Assembly: GCA_025360645.1 (NCBI GenBank)
Contig: JANYBT010000044.1
Location: 1-64,000, forward strand
From: Acidobacteriaceae bacterium
GTDB taxonomy: Bacteria > Acidobacteriota > Terriglobia > Terriglobales > Acidobacteriaceae
Direction: 5' to 3'
DNA length: 64,000 nt
In this document: positions 1 through 29,557 of the stretch, piece after piece
Layout of the letters: each line of letters opens with the position of its first letter
Position numbering within the stretch: the first letter of the stretch is position 1
Translations under genes and position numbers: made by a program
The notes under the pieces: generated by a model
Database searches by the model: none
The model's input: the letters and a program-made list of their open reading frames with translations, nothing else
What the model was told of the DNA's origin: nothing

Positions 1-648
1 AACCGCTTTAATGGCGCGGGCGGTGTGGTCGTAAAGTTCGAAATAGGTGGATTGCTTGGGGTCTCCCACCCAGAAATCAATATTGGGCTCGTTCCAGACC
101 TCGAAGTACCACTGCGAGACTTCGTCGATGCCATAGCGCTCGACCAGGTGGCGGGCGAATTGCGAGATCAGCGAATCCCACTTGGCGTAGTCCTTGGGAG
201 GGGCGACGTTGGGCTTGTACCAGAAAGCATGGGGTGCGTCTTTGGCCGCGAGCTTCGAGGGCATGAAGCTGAGTTCGACGAAGGGGCGCACGCCATTGGC
301 GCGTAGGCCGTCATAAATCTGATCCACATAAGAAAAATTCAGGATGGGAGTGCCCTTGGCATCTTCGTCGTAAATTCCGACTTCGTCGTGAAGGATGGCG
401 TGGAAGCGGACGTACTGCATGTCGGTGATCTGCTTGACCTCGCGCAGGTCGTGGCGATAGCTGTCGCGCAAGGAGAGGATGGCGCGGCCGGAGCCGAACA
501 TGTGCTCCCAGAAATGAGGGAAGGGATGGGCGGGAGCGGCGGCGTCCACGACGACCACTTCCGGCTTTTGTGCCCAAGATAAAACCGGGGTGATGGCGAG
601 CGCCAGACAAAGGATTTTCCCAGAGAGAGAGGAGTTCATCATCTTCAT
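1..648 (-). CDS. Glycoside hydrolase family 39 (beta-xylosidase-like), partial
   Basis: The 216 visible codons form the N-terminal part; the 3' end runs off the window. The protein begins MKMMNSSLSGKILCLALA and has a signal peptide ending near LSWAQ (residue 27), so it is exported. The segment around residues 181-189 reads FEVWNEPN, the family's acid/base motif, which makes Glu187 the likely proton donor. FWEHMFGSGRA and the following TDMQYVRFHAIL are also typical of GH39 enzymes acting on xylo-oligosaccharides or related beta-glycosides. The ATG at 648 was chosen over the ATGs at 642 and 639 because it gives the longest signal peptide; no strong Shine-Dalgarno is visible. The gene lies just downstream of the TonB receptor, which suggests a shared sugar-uptake role. 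Confidence 0.8.
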   Translation of the reverse strand, partial: MKMMNSSLSGKILCLALAITPVLSWAQKPEVVVVDAAAPAHPFPHFWEHMFGSGRAILSLRDSYRHDLREVKQITDMQYVRFHAILHDEVGIYDEDAKGTPILNFSYVDQIYDGLRANGVRPFVELSFMPSKLAAKDAPHAFWYKPNVAPPKDYAKWDSLISQFARHLVERYGIDEVSQWYFEVWNEPNIDFWVGDPKQSTYFELYDHTARAIKAV

Positions 649-19721: not shown

Positions 19722-21641
19722 CTAGTGCTGTAAATACCACGACGTAGTAGAAGTATCGGTTTTGAAGTAGTTGAGCAAGTAGCTGGCAACCTTGATCTTG
19801 CCAGTGGTTGCGGGATGGGTGCCGTCTTTGGAAGAATCCTGACAGGACCACACTAGTCCGTCCTTCCGTCCGAGCAAGCCATTGGTCCAGTCGTAGGGTC
19901 CCCAAATGATCAAGGGTGCGACCACCGTGCCGTTGCTGCTCTTGTAGTTGAGGTTGTTCAAGCCATTGACCTGGTCCTGAATCGCCCATTTGACGGCGTA
20001 CCCGACTTCGAAAGCGTAGGGTTCCGGATTCACCGTGGAAATTCCGTTGGAATAGCCGGCATAGAAACGGCTGGTAAAATAAGCGATTTTAATTTTGGGG
20101 AACAGAGTGTAGATGTTGCGAGCCATCTGTTCGTATTCGGACTGCAAGTTGGTGATGTCGGCGGGGAAAGTGCCGCTGGCAATGCCATCGGTGGTTTCCA
20201 CCCACACCGCTTGCACCTGGTTTGGGGTGACGCTGGCCCCGGGCAGATAGTCATTCAGGATCGTGGTCCAATAGGCGGAAGTGGTCAGTTGGAAGTTCTT
20301 CGGGGTTGCGCCACCCTGAGCTCCGTTCACGATTACCAGGCTCTTGTTCTTCTGGGGATCGGCGTTAGCCAATTGCACGAACTGCCCAAATTCATCCAGG
20401 GCAGTGGATTCTCCGATGCTGAGGAGAACGATCTTGCCGGTGGTGCTGGGATTGCCGTTGGAATCGAGGGGAGTGATCGCGTTGCCGAACGCGACTGCGT
20501 CGGCATCGGTGGTCGCCGGACGTACATTGCTTCCGTTGGGGTAGAGTCCGCCTTGGGAACCTTGATACGTGCCCACGCCCAGGTCGGTGAGGGGAACGAT
20601 CGGCGTCGTGGTGCTTGGGATGTTGAAGGAAATGTTGCTGCAGGCGGCGCCTGTAGCGGCGAAGACGGGAAATGTGAAGGTCTTGCTGCCGGCAACGCCT
20701 TTGCCGTCCTTAACGTTGATGGTGAAAGTGTAATTGCCTGTGCCCACCGAAACGTCCAGCGTCCCACTGAGCAAGCCCTTACTGGTGCCCTTGATGCCCT
20801 TGGGCAGTGCCGACCCAGTGGCCAGGCTGTAGGTGTAGGGATTGACCCCTCCCGTGCCATTGAGTTGGACTTGGTATGCAGAGCTCTGGGTGGCGGCGGG
20901 GAGCAACGCCAAGTTGGTGATGGCCACTGAGGTGGCTGCGATGCCCGTGCCGTTGAGATCGGAAGCGTTGTCGGGAACGGAGTCGTAGGTGAGATCCAGA
21001 ACCGCGGTGTCAGACTCCACGCCGGTCGGACTGTAGGTGATGGTCAGCGGAAACGAGGCCCCGGCATTAATGGTCGCAGGGAGGGTGGAGGAGGTGACAG
21101 CGAAATTCGCAGTCTGCGGCGTGACGGACTGCAATGACAGGCTCTGTCCGCCCGTGTTCGTCACATTCAGGATCTGGCTGGCGCTGATGGATCCCACTGT
21201 GGTGTTTCCAAAATTCACCGCAGTGGAACTCAGGCTGGCGGCGGCCGTAGTGAGCTTCCCGGTCCCCGTCAGGGGTACCACTGTGGTCACGCCGGTATTG
21301 TCCAGCAAATTCATATTGCAATTGAAGGTGGTGCCGGAGTCGGGCGCAAATTGCACCGAATAGTGGGTAAAGCCGCCGTTGGCCTTGACGGTTTCAGGCG
21401 CTACGCCGGAAGTCAGTTGGAACTGAGGGCAGATCAGAGTGATGGTTCGAATGGTGAGGTTGACCGCCCCGCTGTTGGTAACCGTAAAAGCTTTGGTGCC
21501 GCTCACTTTGCCCACGTAGGTGGCACTATACGTGTAGGAGGAAGGAGATACGGTGATGACCTGGGCTCGCGCCACGGGCGAGAGGAAACTGAATACGACG
21601 GAAAGCAGAGCCGCAGAGCTCGCCGAAAAGAAAGTTTTCAT
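19722..21641 (-). CDS. Secreted ASH/Ig protein with a C-terminal SGNH-hydrolase-like domain (copy A)
   Basis: 639 residues from the ATG at 21641, which has GAGGTGGG upstream and a signal peptide MKTFFSASSAALLSVVFSFL...ARAQ. Domain order: two ASH-type domains (about 28-230), a putative Ig domain of the He_PIG kind (about 235-330), then a roughly 300-residue C-terminal domain. That domain carries LLSIGES (Ser412), NGAQGGA, AVWVETTDG and DGTHP (Asp606, His609), which match in order and spacing the catalytic Ser, the Gly block and the Asp-x-x-His block of SGNH/GDSL hydrolases. The match is inference from motifs; Asn of block III is not obvious. A tandem paralogue lies directly upstream and two more are at 38482-42487. 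Confidence 0.7.
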   Translation of the reverse strand: MKTFFSASSAALLSVVFSFLSPVARAQVITVSPSSYTYSATYVGKVSGTKAFTVTNSGAVNLTIRTITLICPQFQLTSGVAPETVKANGGFTHYSVQFAPDSGTTFNCNMNLLDNTGVTTVVPLTGTGKLTTAAASLSSTAVNFGNTTVGSISASQILNVTNTGGQSLSLQSVTPQTANFAVTSSTLPATINAGASFPLTITYSPTGVESDTAVLDLTYDSVPDNASDLNGTGIAATSVAITNLALLPAATQSSAYQVQLNGTGGVNPYTYSLATGSALPKGIKGTSKGLLSGTLDVSVGTGNYTFTINVKDGKGVAGSKTFTFPVFAATGAACSNISFNIPSTTTPIVPLTDLGVGTYQGSQGGLYPNGSNVRPATTDADAVAFGNAITPLDSNGNPSTTGKIVLLSIGESTALDEFGQFVQLANADPQKNKSLVIVNGAQGGATPKNFQLTTSAYWTTILNDYLPGASVTPNQVQAVWVETTDGIASGTFPADITNLQSEYEQMARNIYTLFPKIKIAYFTSRFYAGYSNGISTVNPEPYAFEVGYAVKWAIQDQVNGLNNLNYKSSNGTVVAPLIIWGPYDWTNGLLGRKDGLVWSCQDSSKDGTHPATTGKIKVASYLLNYFKTDTSTTSWYLQH

Positions 21642-21722
21642 GACCCACCTCAATTGGAGTTTGCAAAACTGTTGGTTCTCTATCGCCCCTGTGATCGAGA
21701 CCGCGGATCGGATGCAGCGGCC

Positions 21723-21779: not shown

Positions 21780-23726
21780 TTACTTCGTTTCTGGAGCGTT
21801 GAACCCCGGGGCTTTGAACCACGGCGTTGCCGAAGTGTCGCTCTTAAAATAATTCAGGAGCTGATTGGCCACTTTCTGCTGCCCGGTGGGTTTCGAAGGA
21901 TGGGTTCCATCCGAAGAGACATCCTGGCAGGTCCATACCAACCCATCCTGACGGCCGAGCAGGCCGTCGGTCCAGTCGTACGGGCCCCAAATCATCAGGG
22001 GCGCAACGACGGTGCCACTGCTGCCTTTGTAATTGAGATTGTTTACGCCATTGATCTGATCTTGGATCGCCCACTTGACCGCGAATCCAACCTCGTAAGC
22101 ATACGGTTCCGGATTGACCGTGGAAACGCCGTTGGAATAGCCCGCGTAAAAGCGGCTGGAGAAATATGCCAACGAAGCATTCGGAAACAGAACGTGAACG
22201 TTACGTGCCATTTGTTCATACTCGCTGTAAAGAGTGTTGATGTCGGTGGGGAAGGTTCCGCTAGCGATGCCGTCGGTGTCCTCAATCCAAACCGCGGTGA
22301 CTTGATAGGAGGTGACGTTGGCGCCGGGTAGGTAGTCCTTCAGGATAGTAGACCAATACGCCGAAGTAAGCGATTGGAAGTTGGCTGGCGTCGCGCCCCC
22401 CTGAGAGCCATTCACCAGCACCAGGTTTGCGTTCTTGGAGGGGTCGGAATTGGCTAGGGAGACGAATTGTCCAAACTCGTCGAGCGCCGTGGACTCGCCC
22501 ACGCTGAGCAGCACGTACTTGCCGGTAGGACTGGGGTTGCCATTGGCATCCAGAGGCTGAATTGCCTTCCCGAACGCGACCGCGTCGGCATCGGTTTGGG
22601 CAGGCCGCAGGTTACTTCCACCGGGATACAGTCCGCCCTGCGATCCCTGATAGGTGCCGGCGCCCAGGTCGGTCAGCGGCGTAATCGGGGTGGTGGTCTT
22701 CGGAACATTGAACGAGATGTTATTGCATGCTGAACCGGTTTTGGCCGCGACGGTAACGGTGAACGCTTTGCTGGAACTCTGGAGCTGCGCGTCAGTTACG
22801 TTGATGGTGAAGGAGTAGGTGCCGATGCCGACGGAGGTCGCAAGGGTCCCGGTGATCGCTCCAGAGCTGGAGAGGCTGAGCCCCGAGGGGAGGGTAGATC
22901 CGGATGCCAACGAAAATGTAAAGGGGGCGGTGCCGCCGTTCGCCTGCAGGTTGGCTTGGTAGGCGGAACTCTGTGTGGCCGTCGGCAAGACGCTGAAGGT
23001 TGCGATGTCCACCGGCACGGAAGCGACCCCCGTGCCACTCAGGTTGACCCCGTTCATGGGAATCGAGTCGTAAGTGAAACTGAGGACTCCAGTGTCCGAC
23101 CGAACAGCAGTAGGAGAGTAAGTCACGGTGAAGGGAACGGTGTCGCCCGCGCGCACGGTCAGCGGCAAGGCTGGACCGGTGGCCGCGAAGTTGGCGGGCA
23201 CGGTGACGAATCCGGTCAAGTTCATCTTTTGGGTGCCGGAGTTGTGCAGGTTGACGGTGAGAGCGGAGGTGGTAGTTCCCACGGCGTCATTGCCGAACGC
23301 CAGCGTGGTCTGATCCAGGGAGGAGGCGGCATTGGTCAACTTGCCGGTGCCGATAAGGTTCACGTTGGTGATGCTGAAGTCATTCAGCTCAACCACCATG
23401 TTGCAGTTGTAGACCAGGCCTGCGTCGGGCGCGAAGAACACGGAGTAATGGGTGGTGCCGCCGTTGGCTTTAATGGTGGTGGGAGCGACTCCCGACGCCA
23501 ACTTAAATTCCGGGCAGGAGAAAGTGATGCTGATCACGGTCACGTTGGCTGTCCCGTTGTTGGTCACTGTGAAGGCTGTCGAGGCGGACGCCAAGCCAAC
23601 GTAGGTTGCGGTGAAGGTGTGTCCCACAGGTTTCACCGAAATGGACGCCGTGGCTGGAGTAGCCAAAACGACGCCCAGAAGGCATCCCACAATGATACGG
23701 ACAGCATTTTTCGAAACCATTGGCAT
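21780..23726 (-). CDS. Secreted ASH/Ig protein with a C-terminal SGNH-hydrolase-like domain (copy B)
   Basis: 648 residues, closely related to copy A downstream. The ATG at 23726 follows GGAG after AAA, and another in-frame ATG lies at 23720. The signal peptide is MPMVSKNAVRIIVGCLLGVVLATPATA. Two ASH-type domains (FTATYVGLASASTAFTVTN and TTLAFGNDAVG regions) are followed by a He_PIG-like Ig domain (AYQANLQANGGTAPFTFSLA) and the same C-terminal domain with LSVGES, NGSQGGA, AVWIEDTDG and DGTHPS motifs. The conserved strip NPEPYAYEVGFAVKWAIQDQ is shared by the whole family and looks like a structural or substrate-binding element. Probably an exported esterase- or deacetylase-like enzyme, by motif only. 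Confidence 0.7.
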   Translation of the reverse strand: MPMVSKNAVRIIVGCLLGVVLATPATASISVKPVGHTFTATYVGLASASTAFTVTNNGTANVTVISITFSCPEFKLASGVAPTTIKANGGTTHYSVFFAPDAGLVYNCNMVVELNDFSITNVNLIGTGKLTNAASSLDQTTLAFGNDAVGTTTSALTVNLHNSGTQKMNLTGFVTVPANFAATGPALPLTVRAGDTVPFTVTYSPTAVRSDTGVLSFTYDSIPMNGVNLSGTGVASVPVDIATFSVLPTATQSSAYQANLQANGGTAPFTFSLASGSTLPSGLSLSSSGAITGTLATSVGIGTYSFTINVTDAQLQSSSKAFTVTVAAKTGSACNNISFNVPKTTTPITPLTDLGAGTYQGSQGGLYPGGSNLRPAQTDADAVAFGKAIQPLDANGNPSPTGKYVLLSVGESTALDEFGQFVSLANSDPSKNANLVLVNGSQGGATPANFQSLTSAYWSTILKDYLPGANVTSYQVTAVWIEDTDGIASGTFPTDINTLYSEYEQMARNVHVLFPNASLAYFSSRFYAGYSNGVSTVNPEPYAYEVGFAVKWAIQDQINGVNNLNYKGSSGTVVAPLMIWGPYDWTDGLLGRQDGLVWTCQDVSSDGTHPSKPTGQQKVANQLLNYFKSDTSATPWFKAPGFNAPETK

Positions 23727-23768: not shown

Positions 23769-25016
23769 TTACCGTGAAAAAAGTTCTACCTCTCGTGCCA
23801 TGTTCAATATTTCTCGACCAATGGGGAGAGAGGCAGTTGCGGCGGGGGAAGGACAATTTAGTATATGAAGAAACCGGCCGCAAGGCAAGAAATTAAAATC
23901 GTCCACCAGGGAGCCGTCCAGACGGATGGCCTGGGCGCGAACCCCAGCACCGCCCGGCCGCAGGTCTGCCGGCTTTAGTTCCGGAACCAACCGTTGCAGG
24001 GAACGAAGAAAGGCGGATTTGCTTAGGGATCGCCCGAATTCGCCGACCCCATAGCGCCAGTTCCTGAGGGCGAGACGGCGAAAGCCAGCTGAGCCGACAC
24101 TCTCCAGAACGTCTTGGGCGTTGAAGTCGCTGCGTTGGTAGCCCTCGCGGTCGAAAGCGAAGACTGCGTTGGGACCGGCGTCCACTCCGCCGTGGACGCG
24201 GCGAGTCAAGTGCACGCCCAGGAAAGGAAATCGCGGATCGGGAACGGGGTAGATGAGGCCGCGCACCAGGGACTCCCGCTCCGGGATGAGGTCGTAATAC
24301 TCCCCGCGGAAGGGGACGATCAGGACATCCGGCTGGTGGCCTGCCAGGCGCGCGATGCGATCACTGTACAGCCCGGCGCAGTTGACCACCGCTCGGGTCG
24401 CGAAACTTCCTCGCGTGGTCAGGACCGTGACTTGGGAACCGTCCTGTCGAAAGCCTGTGACGCGGGCTCCCGTCACCAGCGTCGCTCCCTGCGCCATCGC
24501 AAGTTCCGCATACTTCGCGGAGACTTGAGCGTAGCCCGTAATTCCGGTACCGGGCACCCATAGCGCGCGAAGCCCTTCGCAGGCGGGTTCGATTTGCTTC
24601 ATCTCGGATGGGTCAAGCAGGCGCAGACCGATAAGCCCGTTGGCCTGGCCGCGTTGCCACAAGTCGTCAAGCCGGGGAACTTCCTGCTCACGCGTGGCCA
24701 CAATGAGTTTGCCGCACCGGGCATAGGGGATGGAGTGCTCGTGGCAGAACTCTGCCATGGCGCGAGCTCCTTCCACGCACAGCTTGGCCTTCAGTGAGCC
24801 GGGTTGGTAGTAGACGCCGGAGTGGACGACCCCGCTGTTGTGGCCGCTTTGGTGGCGAGCGACTCCCTCTTCCTTTTCTAGAATGAGCAGGCGCAGGCCC
24901 GGCAAGTCACGCACCGCTTGCATGGCAAAGGAAAGGCCCACAATGCCAGCGCCGATCACGGCGACGTCGTAGCCAGTGGAGCTTTTCGGCGCGGGATGTG
25001 GATCGGACAAAGACAA
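23769..25016 (-). CDS. lhgO: L-2-hydroxyglutarate oxidase (FAD-dependent)
   Basis: About 415 residues in the DAO/L2HGDH fold. The N-terminal VAVIGAGIVGLSFA is the FAD-binding GxGxxG motif. RHQSGHNSGVVHSGVYYQPGS and PFRGEYY are signatures of LhgO, which oxidises L-2-hydroxyglutarate to 2-oxoglutarate and passes electrons to the membrane quinone pool. The long open frame continues upstream into the neighbouring gene, so the start must lie below 25127. TTG at 25016 was chosen (TTG at 25010 is equivalent) with a weak GGTGGAAG upstream; the start is uncertain. It is a housekeeping-type metabolic gene placed among secreted-protein genes with no visible functional link. Confidence 0.85.
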   Translation of the reverse strand: MSLSDPHPAPKSSTGYDVAVIGAGIVGLSFAMQAVRDLPGLRLLILEKEEGVARHQSGHNSGVVHSGVYYQPGSLKAKLCVEGARAMAEFCHEHSIPYARCGKLIVATREQEVPRLDDLWQRGQANGLIGLRLLDPSEMKQIEPACEGLRALWVPGTGITGYAQVSAKYAELAMAQGATLVTGARVTGFRQDGSQVTVLTTRGSFATRAVVNCAGLYSDRIARLAGHQPDVLIVPFRGEYYDLIPERESLVRGLIYPVPDPRFPFLGVHLTRRVHGGVDAGPNAVFAFDREGYQRSDFNAQDVLESVGSAGFRRLALRNWRYGVGEFGRSLSKSAFLRSLQRLVPELKPADLRPGGAGVRAQAIRLDGSLVDDFNFLPCGRFLHILNCPSPAATASLPIGREILNMAREVELFSR

Positions 25017-25126: not shown

Positions 25127-28100
25127 TTACATCACCGTCAGGGTCACTGTCGTGGTGTGCGTGACCCCCCCACCGGTGGCTGAGATCGTGACCGTGTAGG
25201 TCCCGGCTGCGGTCTGCTGCGTTAGCATCACTGCGGCCGAAGCCGATTTCGTTGTGTCCGCCTGCGATACCGCGGTGACCGAGACAGTTGCCGGAGTCGG
25301 TACCACCGTTGGCGGTGTATAGAGACCAGCGGTTGTGATGGTGCCTACGGTGGCATTGCCTCCCACCACCCCCGCCACTTCCCAATTCACCGCCGTGTTG
25401 GTGGTGTTGGTGACCGTCGCAGTGAACTGCTTGGTCTGCGTGGTGAACAAGGTGGCGGTTGTGGGGGTGATGGTGACCGCTACTGCCGGCGGCGGCGGAG
25501 GCGTGCTGTTGCTGGAACCACAAGCCGGCAACAGAATGAGGGGCGCGATCATCAGCGTCAGCATGAGCAGCGTTGCCCCGGTTCGGCGGCGAAGCGGCGC
25601 GCTGAAGAATATCCCGAACGCCAGTCCGAAAGCCGACATCACCAGCGCCAGCGGAGTGTGATCCGGTTGCGTACTGGCGGTGGGGACGATCCGGTTGGAG
25701 GCGTTGGGTCCATTCGTGCTGATGGTGAGCACGCTCGCGGTTCCACCCGGAGTGACGGTCGTCGGGTTGAACAAGCACGCCGCCCCGGCGGGAAGACCCG
25801 CGGTGCATGACAGAGTCACTGTGTTGGTGTTGGCGCCTCCGACGGACGCAGCCGTCACGTTGTAGCTGGCGGATTGTCCCGCGCTGACCGTGCCTTTGAT
25901 CACGCTGGTTCCCACGCTAAAGTCCGGCAGGGAAGTGAAGACCAGCGCAGCAGAATGGGTGGTTTTCGCGGTGTCGGTTCCGGTGGCGACGATATTGAAA
26001 GTCGTGGTTCGCTCGGAGGTGTCGCCGAGAGTGACGGTGAAGGTTGCGCCCACCGCGGTCGGCGTGACCGAAGACGGCGAGATGCTGCAGGTGGCCGGGT
26101 GTCCAGAGCCGCAGGTCAGGGTTACCGCGCTGCTGTAGGAGTTGATGGAAGTCAGCGTACCCGTAACCGTCGTGGTTTGATTGACCACTGCGGAAGGAGT
26201 ACCGCTGTTCAACAGCAAGGTGAAGTCCGCAACCGGTGAGGTCACATTCGCGGTGAAGGTCCTGGTCTTGGCCGAAGGATCCCCAGAGGTGGTGCCCGAG
26301 ACGGTGATTGTCGAATTCCCCAGGGTGGCGCCCGCAGCCGCAGTGATGGTCAAGGTGACGGTGACCGGTACGGTTGCAGTTGGGCTGACCGAAGCGCTGG
26401 GCGAGAAGTTGCAAGTGATGGTGGACGAACCCGCGCAGGCGAGTGCGACCGCGCCGTTAAACGACCCGGCAGCCGTCACTTGGAAGGTGCTGGAGGCCGT
26501 CGAAGTTGTGCCCTGCTGCACCTTGATGGTGCCCGGCGAGATCGCGGCCAAGTCAAAGTCCACTACGTGCAGCACGACCGCGGCATCGTGCACGGTGTTG
26601 CCGGTGTCGGAACCCACTCCGTGAACGTTGAAGTTGTAGTCGCCGGCCGTGCCCTTGGCGGTGACCGTGTAGGTTGCGCCCCCCGCCGTGGGGGTCAGTT
26701 TGGCTGGGGCCACCGAGCAAGTGCTGGGAAGCGGATTAGGATTGCCAACGCAACTCAGTGTCACCTGGCTGTTGTAGCTGTTGAGTGAAGTCAGCGTGCC
26801 GCTGAACGAAGCGGTCTGCGTGGGAAACATGGTCTGCGGCGAGTTGGAAACTGCGTTGGTGTAATCGGCGGAGGCCAGCAGATTGAATTCCCAGATACCG
26901 CGACCATACGTGGAAGCGCGCAACCTCTTCATCCCGGTCGTCTGGAAAATACGCAAAGCTGTCACCGGTGCGTTGGGCAGGTATCCGACTGCGCCCGGCG
27001 CTGGAATCGGACCGACTTCGGTCCAGGCTGGGGTCGTCCCAGTAGTCGGACTCACAAAGATGCCGACATCGGTGCCGACGTAGACGTTGGTGGCTTGCGA
27101 GTCCACCACCAGAGAGTTGACCGGCGCATCGGGTAGCGTTCCTGTCCAGTTGACCCAGGTTCCGCCCGCGTCGGTAGTCTTGAATACATGGCCCACGCCG
27201 AAGCCCATGATGCCCACATAGGCGGTTTTGCCAGTGGCATCGGACTGATCCATCGCAACCGTGGGAATGGGGAAGAATCCGGGATTGATGGAGCCGGTAA
27301 CGGCATTGAACGTCGAGGTGCCCCCCGCAGCGTTGGTGGTGACAAAAACGTTTCCGCCCACGCTGGTCAAACTGCCTGTCCCATCGGTGGTGGCCCACAC
27401 CACATTGGAGAAGCCGTTTGTGTCTTTCGGTCCACCGGCGTCCAGGCCGTGCACCAGATTGATTTCATTGCCGAAGCACCTGAAACCCGTTCCGTCAAAG
27501 TAGTCGCTCAATGCGGTAAACGCACCGCCGCCCAATCGCGGTCCCCGCCATACCCGGCAGGTGCCAATCAGAATAGCCGTAGTGGACTGCGGGTCCAGAA
27601 TATAGGGGAAGTAAAACGCACCATCGTCGCCAGCCAGATCGGTGCTGGAAATTACAGGATTCCAACTGTTTTGGCTGCAGGCAGCGCCGGCGGAGCAGTT
27701 ATTGATAACGAGGCTGCCATTGCCGCCGTCGGGGTTCGAGGTGAACCAACTGGATCCCGAGTTGGGGTCAATGGCATTGAAGCCGCCATCCCCGCCCAGC
27801 ACATTCAGCCAGCTGGTCTTGCTTCCCGCCGAAGCGGTTCCGGGAGAGCCGTTGTCTTGCGTGCCTCCCAACAATTGCGCCGGATCGGTGGGGTGAACCG
27901 AGAACGAAACGAACTCAGTCATGGAACCCAGAGTGGTGTTCAGACTGTCAAATTGATTGCTGCCAGTGCAGGCCCCGGTGGTCAGGTCCGTGAAGCCGTC
28001 GAGGGTGCGATAGATGCCGCCGTCATTCGCGAAATAACCGATCGCCTTGCCGCTGGCGATCATGAAATCCAGATGGTGCTGGTCCGGGTGCACATGCGCG

Positions 28101-29557
28101 ATTCCGCCAAAGGTCGGGGCGCATCCGTAAACGTGGGTCAGGTTCAAGAACGAGTTGGCCGAATTGGCTGTATTGTCGTTGCAGGTTGGAAAGGCGCTCG
28201 TGATCGTGCACTTGTAGAGATTGATGGTGCCGGCATAAACGTCCGTGGCCGTGGCGCCGTTGGGCACTGCAGCGATCTCCAGATTGTAGGTACCTTGCGA
28301 GATGCCACAGCCGCCCGCCTCTCCGCAACCGATAATCCCATTTTCATTCAAAGGGGTCCAGGAGCCCCCGCCGTCTAGAGACTTGTAGATGCCTCCGTCC
28401 ACCTCCGCTCCGTTGTTATCCAGGGAAATGATCCAGGTGTACATCTCGTTCCGTCCGGCGACGACTGCCGTTTCCGCCCGGTAGATGGGGCAGAGGGAAG
28501 ACGTCCCGGTGGCTGGGCATTTGGCCGCGGTCAAGGTGTTCAACGGCTGGATCGCGAGCCGGGTCCAATTGATGCCGTCGGTGGAGGAATACATGCCGTG
28601 ATAGCGCAGCCAGGCATAGAATTTTCCCGCCATCGCGTTGTAAACCACGCTGGAGACCGAACCGGGATCCACCGTAGTTCCCCCATCCTTCACGCTGGCA
28701 TACTTCCATGTCGCCCCCGCGTCTTGCGAGTAGTAGATGCCGCGGTTCAAAGTCACGGGGGTTTCTTTGCCGGTAAGGATGCCCACGTAGGCGGCTGCGG
28801 CGGCGGCCACCACCAGGTTGGGGTTCGCGGCGCTGAAGGCAATCTTGCTGAATCCGAAACCGGCGAAGGAGCGCCCATCGGCGGAAGATGTAATCAGGTT
28901 CCAGCTGCTGCCACTGTCGGTCGAACGCAGAATGCCCAAGCCGTAGTAAGAGTCCACCGAACTATTGGTCTCACCAGTGCCAACCAGCACCACGCCGGTA
29001 CCGCCGGGTTGAACCGCGATCGCGCCCACAGCCAGCGTGGCTTGGGCGTCAATCTGCGAGGTCCATACCACCGACGATGGACTAGCCGCTGCCGCGTTGG
29101 TGGATTTCCACACTCCGCCGTAAGCGCCGCCAATATACACCGTGTTGCCGGTGGAGTCGGAGGGATCGATCGCGACGGCGGTGGCACGGCCGGAAACGTC
29201 ATGATAGTCCTGGGTGCCGTCCTGGAAAGCGTCGGAGGCGAGCGGCGCGGGGCCGAGCGGGACCCATGTTGCCGTGGCGGCCGCCGGGCCCAAGCCCTTC
29301 GCACTGAAGGCCGCGAACTGCCGGGCGCGCAACGCCAGCTTCTGCTGGTGGGCGCGCAGACGCAGCGCGGCCGCAGACTGGCCCTTCACTTCGCGGCCCT
29401 TGCGGAAATACTGCTCACGCAGGTCCTCGCGATCGCGATCGTTCTCTGCAATCGAATCACGGTAAGGACTCACCTTGGAGCCTTGGGCAAGTGCTGGCGT
29501 GGAGGCGATGGCAAAAAGCAGGAGGGCGGACAAGCTGCGGAGCAGAATGCTTTTCAT
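25127..29557 (-). CDS. Giant secreted BNR/sortilin-like propeller protein with Ig-like domains and an internal lipobox
   Basis: A 1476-residue protein with signal peptide MKSILLRSLSALLLFAIASTPALAQ. Residues about 95-900 contain Asp-box/BNR-type repeats typical of sortilin or glycosidase-like propellers (GGVWKSTN, LRSTDSGSSW, YYSQDAGATW, YKSLDGGGSW, FKTTDAGGTW). Three or more Ig-like domains follow (about 905-1310). An unusual segment comes next: a first hydrophobic stretch, the basic PLRRRTG, a second hydrophobic stretch and LLPACGSSNS, resembling a lipoprotein cleavage box in the middle of a protein. A proline stretch and another Ig-like domain end in HTTTVTLTVM. Similar tails are common in acidobacterial proteins. 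The function is unknown; extracellular or envelope-associated is inferred. Confidence 0.8.
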   Translation of the reverse strand: MKSILLRSLSALLLFAIASTPALAQGSKVSPYRDSIAENDRDREDLREQYFRKGREVKGQSAAALRLRAHQQKLALRARQFAAFSAKGLGPAAATATWVPLGPAPLASDAFQDGTQDYHDVSGRATAVAIDPSDSTGNTVYIGGAYGGVWKSTNAAAASPSSVVWTSQIDAQATLAVGAIAVQPGGTGVVLVGTGETNSSVDSYYGLGILRSTDSGSSWNLITSSADGRSFAGFGFSKIAFSAANPNLVVAAAAAAYVGILTGKETPVTLNRGIYYSQDAGATWKYASVKDGGTTVDPGSVSSVVYNAMAGKFYAWLRYHGMYSSTDGINWTRLAIQPLNTLTAAKCPATGTSSLCPIYRAETAVVAGRNEMYTWIISLDNNGAEVDGGIYKSLDGGGSWTPLNENGIIGCGEAGGCGISQGTYNLEIAAVPNGATATDVYAGTINLYKCTITSAFPTCNDNTANSANSFLNLTHVYGCAPTFGGIAHVHPDQHHLDFMIASGKAIGYFANDGGIYRTLDGFTDLTTGACTGSNQFDSLNTTLGSMTEFVSFSVHPTDPAQLLGGTQDNGSPGTASAGSKTSWLNVLGGDGGFNAIDPNSGSSWFTSNPDGGNGSLVINNCSAGAACSQNSWNPVISSTDLAGDDGAFYFPYILDPQSTTAILIGTCRVWRGPRLGGGAFTALSDYFDGTGFRCFGNEINLVHGLDAGGPKDTNGFSNVVWATTDGTGSLTSVGGNVFVTTNAAGGTSTFNAVTGSINPGFFPIPTVAMDQSDATGKTAYVGIMGFGVGHVFKTTDAGGTWVNWTGTLPDAPVNSLVVDSQATNVYVGTDVGIFVSPTTGTTPAWTEVGPIPAPGAVGYLPNAPVTALRIFQTTGMKRLRASTYGRGIWEFNLLASADYTNAVSNSPQTMFPTQTASFSGTLTSLNSYNSQVTLSCVGNPNPLPSTCSVAPAKLTPTAGGATYTVTAKGTAGDYNFNVHGVGSDTGNTVHDAAVVLHVVDFDLAAISPGTIKVQQGTTSTASSTFQVTAAGSFNGAVALACAGSSTITCNFSPSASVSPTATVPVTVTLTITAAAGATLGNSTITVSGTTSGDPSAKTRTFTANVTSPVADFTLLLNSGTPSAVVNQTTTVTGTLTSINSYSSAVTLTCGSGHPATCSISPSSVTPTAVGATFTVTLGDTSERTTTFNIVATGTDTAKTTHSAALVFTSLPDFSVGTSVIKGTVSAGQSASYNVTAASVGGANTNTVTLSCTAGLPAGAACLFNPTTVTPGGTASVLTISTNGPNASNRIVPTASTQPDHTPLALVMSAFGLAFGIFFSAPLRRRTGATLLMLTLMIAPLILLPACGSSNSTPPPPPAVAVTITPTTATLFTTQTKQFTATVTNTTNTAVNWEVAGVVGGNATVGTITTAGLYTPPTVVPTPATVSVTAVSQADTTKSASAAVMLTQQTAAGTYTVTISATGGGVTHTTTVTLTVM

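Follow-up and report, generated by a model that had tools for sequence, protein, structure and literature searches.

How a giant secreted protein could use a lipoprotein-type signal lying close to its C-terminus is the question raised by a gene in a 64,000-nucleotide stretch of an Acidobacteriaceae genome (GenBank assembly GCA_025360645.1, contig JANYBT010000044.1), hereafter the window. The gene is an uninterrupted 1476-aa ORF at window positions 25127-29557 on the minus strand, and the Cys of the signal is residue 1346 of 1476, which makes the signal internal rather than N-terminal. Behind a predicted hairpin of two helices joined by a basic loop, the chain continues with LLPAC(1346)GSSNS, a proline run, an extra domain and the final 28 residues; counted from the end of the basic loop, 148 residues remain. 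The features are as follows.

25127..29557, minus strand: whole gene, secreted protein with a propeller-like region, three intact Ig-like repeats and a split Ig domain with a hairpin (ORF reading)
29483..29557, minus strand: predicted N-terminal Sec signal peptide, aa 1-25 (MKSILLR, hydrophobic core, ALA then Q; sequence, by eye)
25925..26866, minus strand: three intact Ig-like repeats, aa 898-1211, borders approximate (sequence, by eye)
25706..25924, minus strand: split Ig domain, first part, aa 1212-1284, with strand E and the left-edge motif (TNGP in this protein) at its end (sequence; model pLDDT mostly 90-96)
25595..25654, minus strand: predicted transmembrane helix 1, aa 1302-1321 (sequence; modelled helix aa 1302-1319, moderate confidence)
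25574..25594, minus strand: basic loop LRRRTGA, aa 1322-1328, cytoplasmic placement proposed (sequence)
25523..25573, minus strand: predicted transmembrane helix 2, proposed type II signal peptide core, aa 1329-1345 (sequence; modelled helix aa 1322-1342, moderate confidence)
25520..25522, minus strand: codon of Cys 1346, the proposed lipidated residue, preceded by LLPA (sequence and conservation)
25487..25522, minus strand: CGSSNSTPPPPP proline linker, aa 1346-1357 (sequence)
25214..25486, minus strand: extra beta-rich domain, aa 1358-1448, present in a subset of tails (sequence comparison; low-confidence model)
25130..25213, minus strand: split Ig domain, last two strands F and G, aa 1449-1476 (sequence, model, structural alignment)

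In a Pfam scan of the window protein, the propeller-like region gave weak Sortilin-Vps10/BNR matches under the cut-off, and no Pfam family above the cut-off was found for the extra domain.

Both sequence comparison and models place the hairpin within the last Ig domain, where it separates strand E from strand F, and the chain ends with the final two strands of that domain. An earlier note on this DNA had placed a last Ig-like domain behind the proline run; its description and coordinates fit the protein, except that this chain end has two components: a domain that was inserted, and a strand pair of 28 residues belonging to the Ig domain that begins before the hairpin. We built an intact-repeat profile of 88 positions from 50 repeats upstream of tails, seeded with the second intact Ig-like repeat of the window protein. 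Before helix 1, the profile matched 99 of 103 unspliced C-terminal regions, with a median end at position 66 of 88; the four regions lacking this match resemble N-terminal lipoproteins. After the Cys it matched 86 of the 103 regions, with a median start at position 60 of 88. Under this stricter rule the strands after the Cys were missed in 17 regions, and under a looser rule both halves were found in 93. We rejected the possibility that the final 28 residues are a piece of a second, independent Ig domain: in most tails, these residues align with the closing positions of the Ig profile alone and are assigned to the Ig part ahead of the hairpin.

AlphaFold2 models, judged by their pLDDT and pTM scores, were obtained for the window tail (mean pLDDT 69.9, pTM 0.52, with the extra domain low) and for a canonical tail from Terriglobus albidus (mean pLDDT 83.5, pTM 0.66); in both, the Ig halves scored mostly 88-98 and the helices about 51-76. 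Residues 552-645 of SbsC, one contiguous Ig domain, aligned to positions 6..272 of the window-tail model (Z 10.1, 91 aligned residues, rmsd 2.6), and residues 404-502 of a sialidase, again one contiguous Ig domain, to positions 8..172 of the canonical model (Z 12.0, 94 aligned residues, rmsd 1.9). These alignments, which report the first and last aligned residue only, extend across the insert, starting close to the first strand and reaching the last residue. Since the roughly 90 aligned residues equal the content of the two Ig pieces together, the end strands appear to complete the interrupted Ig domain, although this completion may partly echo the network's knowledge of Ig folds.

To assess the conservation of the site, we searched the fetched loci with a tail profile, which gave 278 matches, 80 of which fail to span the hairpin: 78 lack its columns altogether and 2 cover it in part. 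The remaining 198 hairpin-spanning rows represent 179 distinct tails as judged by the 38 residues around the Cys, 80 from the named-genome set and 99 others. The Cys is kept in 179 of 179; this includes L138, which reads TSC but is out of register in the alignment. It is preceded by G, A or S in 178 tails and by N in one (L175). The rows of the first and second profiles had been picked by a [GAS]C or [GASN]C pattern, with a consequent risk of circularity, and we therefore repeated the search with the Cys and three columns on each side hidden. This masked search returned 183 spanning rows, 176 of which had [GASN]C near the expected place. The seven exceptions comprise L075, L227 and L230, which end just short of [GAS]C, L222, which carries TAGC, and L006, L183 and a second L227 match, in which the matched region has no hairpin. 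Across the 170 columns, the Cys and one Ig-core Gly are the best conserved (4.27 bits each) and the neighbouring helices are weakly conserved; the only other well-conserved Cys pair (columns 37 and 46, 164 and 163 of 181) lies within the Ig part. Column counts out of 180 or 181 still include some genes twice, such as L045 and L078.

Within the named-genome set, 82 full-length matches were distributed across 74 of 80 loci, with [GAS]C in 80 and NC in L175. The full-length match of L183 is an Ig repeat; the hairpin of this protein, with DSC, lies further up, and two extra domains are present as well. L158 and L222, although not full-length matches, also have the Cys. In the 80 tails from named genomes, the basic loops contain 388 K/R vs 20 D/E, helix 2 has a median of 18 uncharged residues and the -3 position is loose (L 25, Q 11, A 11). 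The classical lipobox is [LVI][ASTVI][GAS]C. The window site LLPAC has the required Cys at +1 and a G/A/S residue at -1, with L at -3 and P at -2; given the loose -3 position and this Pro, the classical pattern is not strictly followed. Pro at -2 occurs in 14 of the 80 named-genome tails and in 1 of 32 N-terminal lipoprotein candidates. The latter came from a relaxed script (a strict script gave 6) and are not an independent set, since many were fetched for their resemblance to the window tail and a few are doubtful. They show the same box followed by a Gly/Ser run, with G in 22, A in 7 and S in 3 at -1, and G at +1, counted from the Cys, in 25. A signal-peptide heuristic, weak and subject to uncertain start codons, was positive in 77 of 112 tail carriers vs 36 of 136 other long frames. 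The earlier note's view of the motif as a second, internal type II signal peptide thus agrees with a conserved [GAS]C site, its proposal of a C-terminal anchoring device is the best supported reading, and the loss of the Cys in homologues, which it named as evidence to the contrary, is seen in none of the distinct tails.

Tails of this kind already have a name in NCBIfam. Model NF058595 (invert_tail, "lipo-invert putative C-terminal anchoring domain") matches residues 1274-1382 of the window protein with 23.3 bits, or 27.9 in the genome search, under its curated cut-off of 37. We compared the two by the model's name and description line and by its layout as read from members over the cut-off; all elements of this layout (helix, basic loop, helix, Cys, Gly/Ser run and end strands after an Ig part) are found in the window tail, where the extra domain displaces the end strands. 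At E up to 0.1, the window's genome has 14 matches. Four of them exceed the cut-off; the other ten are the window copy, an additional match within one of the paralogues and eight weak ones. The four paralogues over the cut-off show the Ig part, helix, basic loop, helix, Cys, Gly/Ser run and end strands, and one of them carries an extra domain like that of the window protein, whose own copy differs in scoring under the cut-off. By eye, the eight weak matches include four N-terminal lipoproteins (L009, L010, L012, L013), two intact Ig repeats (L007, L008) and two that are neither (L011, L014). In effect, judging from these sequences, the tail module would be a lipoprotein signal placed into an Ig repeat. 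To the named family we add the split Ig domain, the count of Cys invariance, the left-edge motif and the inserted-domain variants; accessible portions of the literature on internal or C-terminal lipoboxes, acidobacterial lipoproteins and strand complementation gave no account of this tail.

NF058595 was detected in 69 of 396 genomes drawn across the phylum at E up to 1e-5, with 49 over the cut-off, and in 58 of 60 genomes of the window's family (one per genus), where positive genomes had 1 to 29 matches among those listed, in part as "at least" figures. Beyond the family, matches were counted mostly by score, and L028 and L034, both over the cut-off, were read. All 14 control genomes had matches at E 0.1, Thermus alone at 1e-5, and none over the cut-off. 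An end-strand pattern scan of named genomes kept 80 of 108 relatives: 77 records labelled as Acidobacteriota groups (including Terriglobus albidus), one Gammaproteobacteria MAG and two Kitasatospora, L218 and L229, in which a full tail was not found. The Gammaproteobacteria-labelled contig (L198) bears a typical tail, through mis-binning or transfer. The tail sits on unrelated cargo; five scanned carriers have pro-kumamolisin activation domains (two), a sortilin-like propeller (one) and SBBP propeller repeats (two).

The window protein belongs to a minority with additional sequence behind the Cys. Up to 60 residues follow it in 169 of 179 tails, 126-139 in seven, corresponding to one extra domain, and 231-235 in three. 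The last group, measured from Cys to stop, comprises L183, L227 and L230, and L183 has two extra Ig-like domains ahead of the end strands. In the window protein, helix 2, the Cys, the proline run and the extra domain are 58% identical, over 113 residues, to the N-terminal region of an ordinary lipoprotein encoded in the same genome. We read the eight nearest full-length relatives, 40-54% identical to the window protein, and found the Cys and last strands in all of them, with the extra domain present in L075, L076, L077 and L078 and absent from L129, L167, L226 and L233; the extra domain thus comes and goes while the Cys and end strands stay constant. A ninth relative, L080 (G486 contig 271), was left out of the count, its reading frame breaking within the hairpin, genuinely or through an assembly error.

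With the gene, the order of its parts, the invariant Cys and, in sequence and model, the Ig insertion established, we consider it probable that the tail is a module by which Acidobacteriota surface proteins are anchored at the C-terminus, and in which the Cys is lipidated by Lgt and cut by LspA and the strand pair stays clasped in the Ig domain. The N-terminal signal peptide would export the chain via Sec, helix 1 would go back into the membrane with the basic loop remaining inside, and helix 2 would lead the chain out again. Under this topology, which the basic loop implies, helix 2 and [GAS]C would be oriented like a lipoprotein signal peptide. Lgt would put diacylglycerol on the Cys, LspA would cut before it, and the final two strands, now lipidated, would be held in the Ig domain whose first strands precede helix 1, tethering the giant by its C-terminal end. 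We infer this topology together with lipidation and cutting, which rest on the lipoprotein analogy and the invariance of the site, and clasping, which rests on the split Ig domain. A cut at the Cys need not yield two free halves of the protein, as supposed before the position of the hairpin inside an Ig domain was recognised. The prediction is one Cys, one cut and a single short piece bearing the lipid, about 33-61 residues long for 169 of the 179 tails and 131 residues long for the window protein. If this reading is correct, giant surface proteins would be anchored C-terminally by ordinary lipoprotein enzymes without a dedicated sortase, which would explain how a family rich in giant secreted proteins retains them; and if the cut product stays clasped by strand complementation, the tail would provide a split-Ig system of natural origin that could serve as a tool.

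The closest known parallel is the type II signal peptide processed by Lgt and LspA, with which the tail shares a basic stretch, a core of 17-18 residues, [GAS]C and a Gly/Ser-rich linker, in identical orientation if the loop is cytoplasmic. The tail differs in that its signal is internal, near the C-terminus and behind a first, re-entering helix, and in that the lipidated part would be an Ig strand pair and not the whole protein. MYXO-CTERM, the myxosortase tag of Myxococcota, is likewise described in PMC11980579 as a C-terminal module with an invariant Cys proposed to be lipidated; there the Cys lies ahead of one helix and the basic cluster closes the chain, and the authors themselves point to an inverted topology and to the lack of a defined lipobox. 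As far as this description goes, the order of Cys, one helix and Arg-rich end differs from that of the window protein, whose Cys follows helix 2 and whose basic cluster lies between the helices, and the second helix would restore the normal lipoprotein topology. Pilus chaperones were among the structural matches of the tail models. In donor-strand complementation, as in chaperone-usher pili, a strand of a separate chain completes an Ig-like fold, whereas the strands of the tail would come from the protein's own cut-off end, and the structural match reflects the shared fold only.

What becomes of the hairpin is a separate matter. LspA cleavage without a second cut would leave it on the giant, making lipid and hairpin redundant anchors. 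A conserved motif, T-T-A-[R/P], marks the left edge of the insert and is rare in intact repeats. Just past strand E, the tail profile rows, in which a few genes occur twice, have T in 164 of 180, T in 113 of 180, A in 97 of 181 and R or P in 95 of 180, and at the matching profile position the 141 rows that cover intact repeats vary (A 45, T 35, V 18). TT[AS]R occurs in 33 of 167 tails vs 0 of 88 intact repeats and TTAP in 24 of 167 vs 1 of 88, while the window protein reads TNGP. A helix starting with Trp follows in 94 of 180 tails, and then the basic cluster. As the tails share common ancestry, we take this enrichment as a lead and not as proof. Possible, although we would not expect it, is a second protease cut at T-T-A-[R/P] which, combined with the LspA cut before the Cys, would remove the whole hairpin and leave the giant attached solely through non-covalent contacts with its final two Ig strands, which would bear the lipid. 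The lipid would then be on a separate chain clipped into the C-terminal domain, and the protein would be free to reach the outer membrane and face outward.

It is unlikely that the opposite holds and the chain is never cut, with Lgt modifying the Cys, LspA inactive, and hairpin and lipid together holding the protein in the inner membrane. Such an arrangement would account for the invariant Cys and leave the Ig domain covalently whole, and the loose -3 position and the window's Pro at -2 would make a poor LspA site. The -1 residue, however, follows the lipobox rule in 178 of 179 tails, which is what cleavage just ahead of the Cys would predict, and a lipid on a two-helix anchor has no clear use. 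Even less probable is an anchor formed by the helix-loop-helix without any lipid, the Cys serving, say, for a metal, disulfide or packing contact: the models do contain two helices and the loop is basic, but an invariant Cys with G/A/S before it and Gly/Ser after it, as in ordinary lipoproteins, would be unexpected, and the other well-conserved Cys pair is confined to the Ig part. That the tail is a degenerate relic of fusion with a lipoprotein gene is scarcely credible. The earlier note had offered such a fossil as its second explanation, and the likeness to the same-genome lipoprotein N-terminus lends it a little substance for the window variant only; we reject "fossil" because the Cys is invariant, and the module occurs on unrelated cargos and in most sampled genera of the family.

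A sortase- or exosortase-type C-terminal signal, in which helix 1 and RRR form a classical tripartite tag and helix 2 is an add-on, seems very improbable to us. The left half of the insert does have the motif, helix and basic cluster of PEP-CTERM/exosortase, LPXTG/sortase and GlyGly-CTERM/rhombosortase tags in the known order, and a search of the window's genome returned one exosortase-family match and no sortase-family match. Yet these tags end right after the helix and basic cluster, whereas the window protein continues to the end strands, and the Cys and subsequent Ig strands would be left unexplained. The tail also occurs independently of sortase- and exosortase-family genes: in the same draw of 60 family genomes, sortase-family genes were found in 26 and exosortase-family genes in 34, vs the tail model in 58, and G007, G023, G179, G388 and G436, with 14, 6, 9, 9 and 7 tail matches listed, have neither. 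On this distribution we reject a sortase or exosortase as the required enzyme, and a tail carried by almost every sampled genome of the family fits universal lipoprotein enzymes better; the window's genome has one match each for LspA and Lgt. The exosortase-family match lies at G000:C122:28649-29410 (E 3.0e-73), and a PEP-CTERM-type pathway may coexist with the tail in this genome.

Downstream of the gene, from window position 23769 to about 25000 on the minus strand, lies a gene that resembles an FAD-dependent oxidoreductase of the L-2-hydroxyglutarate oxidase type. Further along the same strand, two adjacent long frames at window 19722-21653 and 21780-23726 encode secreted proteins whose clear similarity is seen by eye in shared stretches; the pair is likely the result of a duplication.
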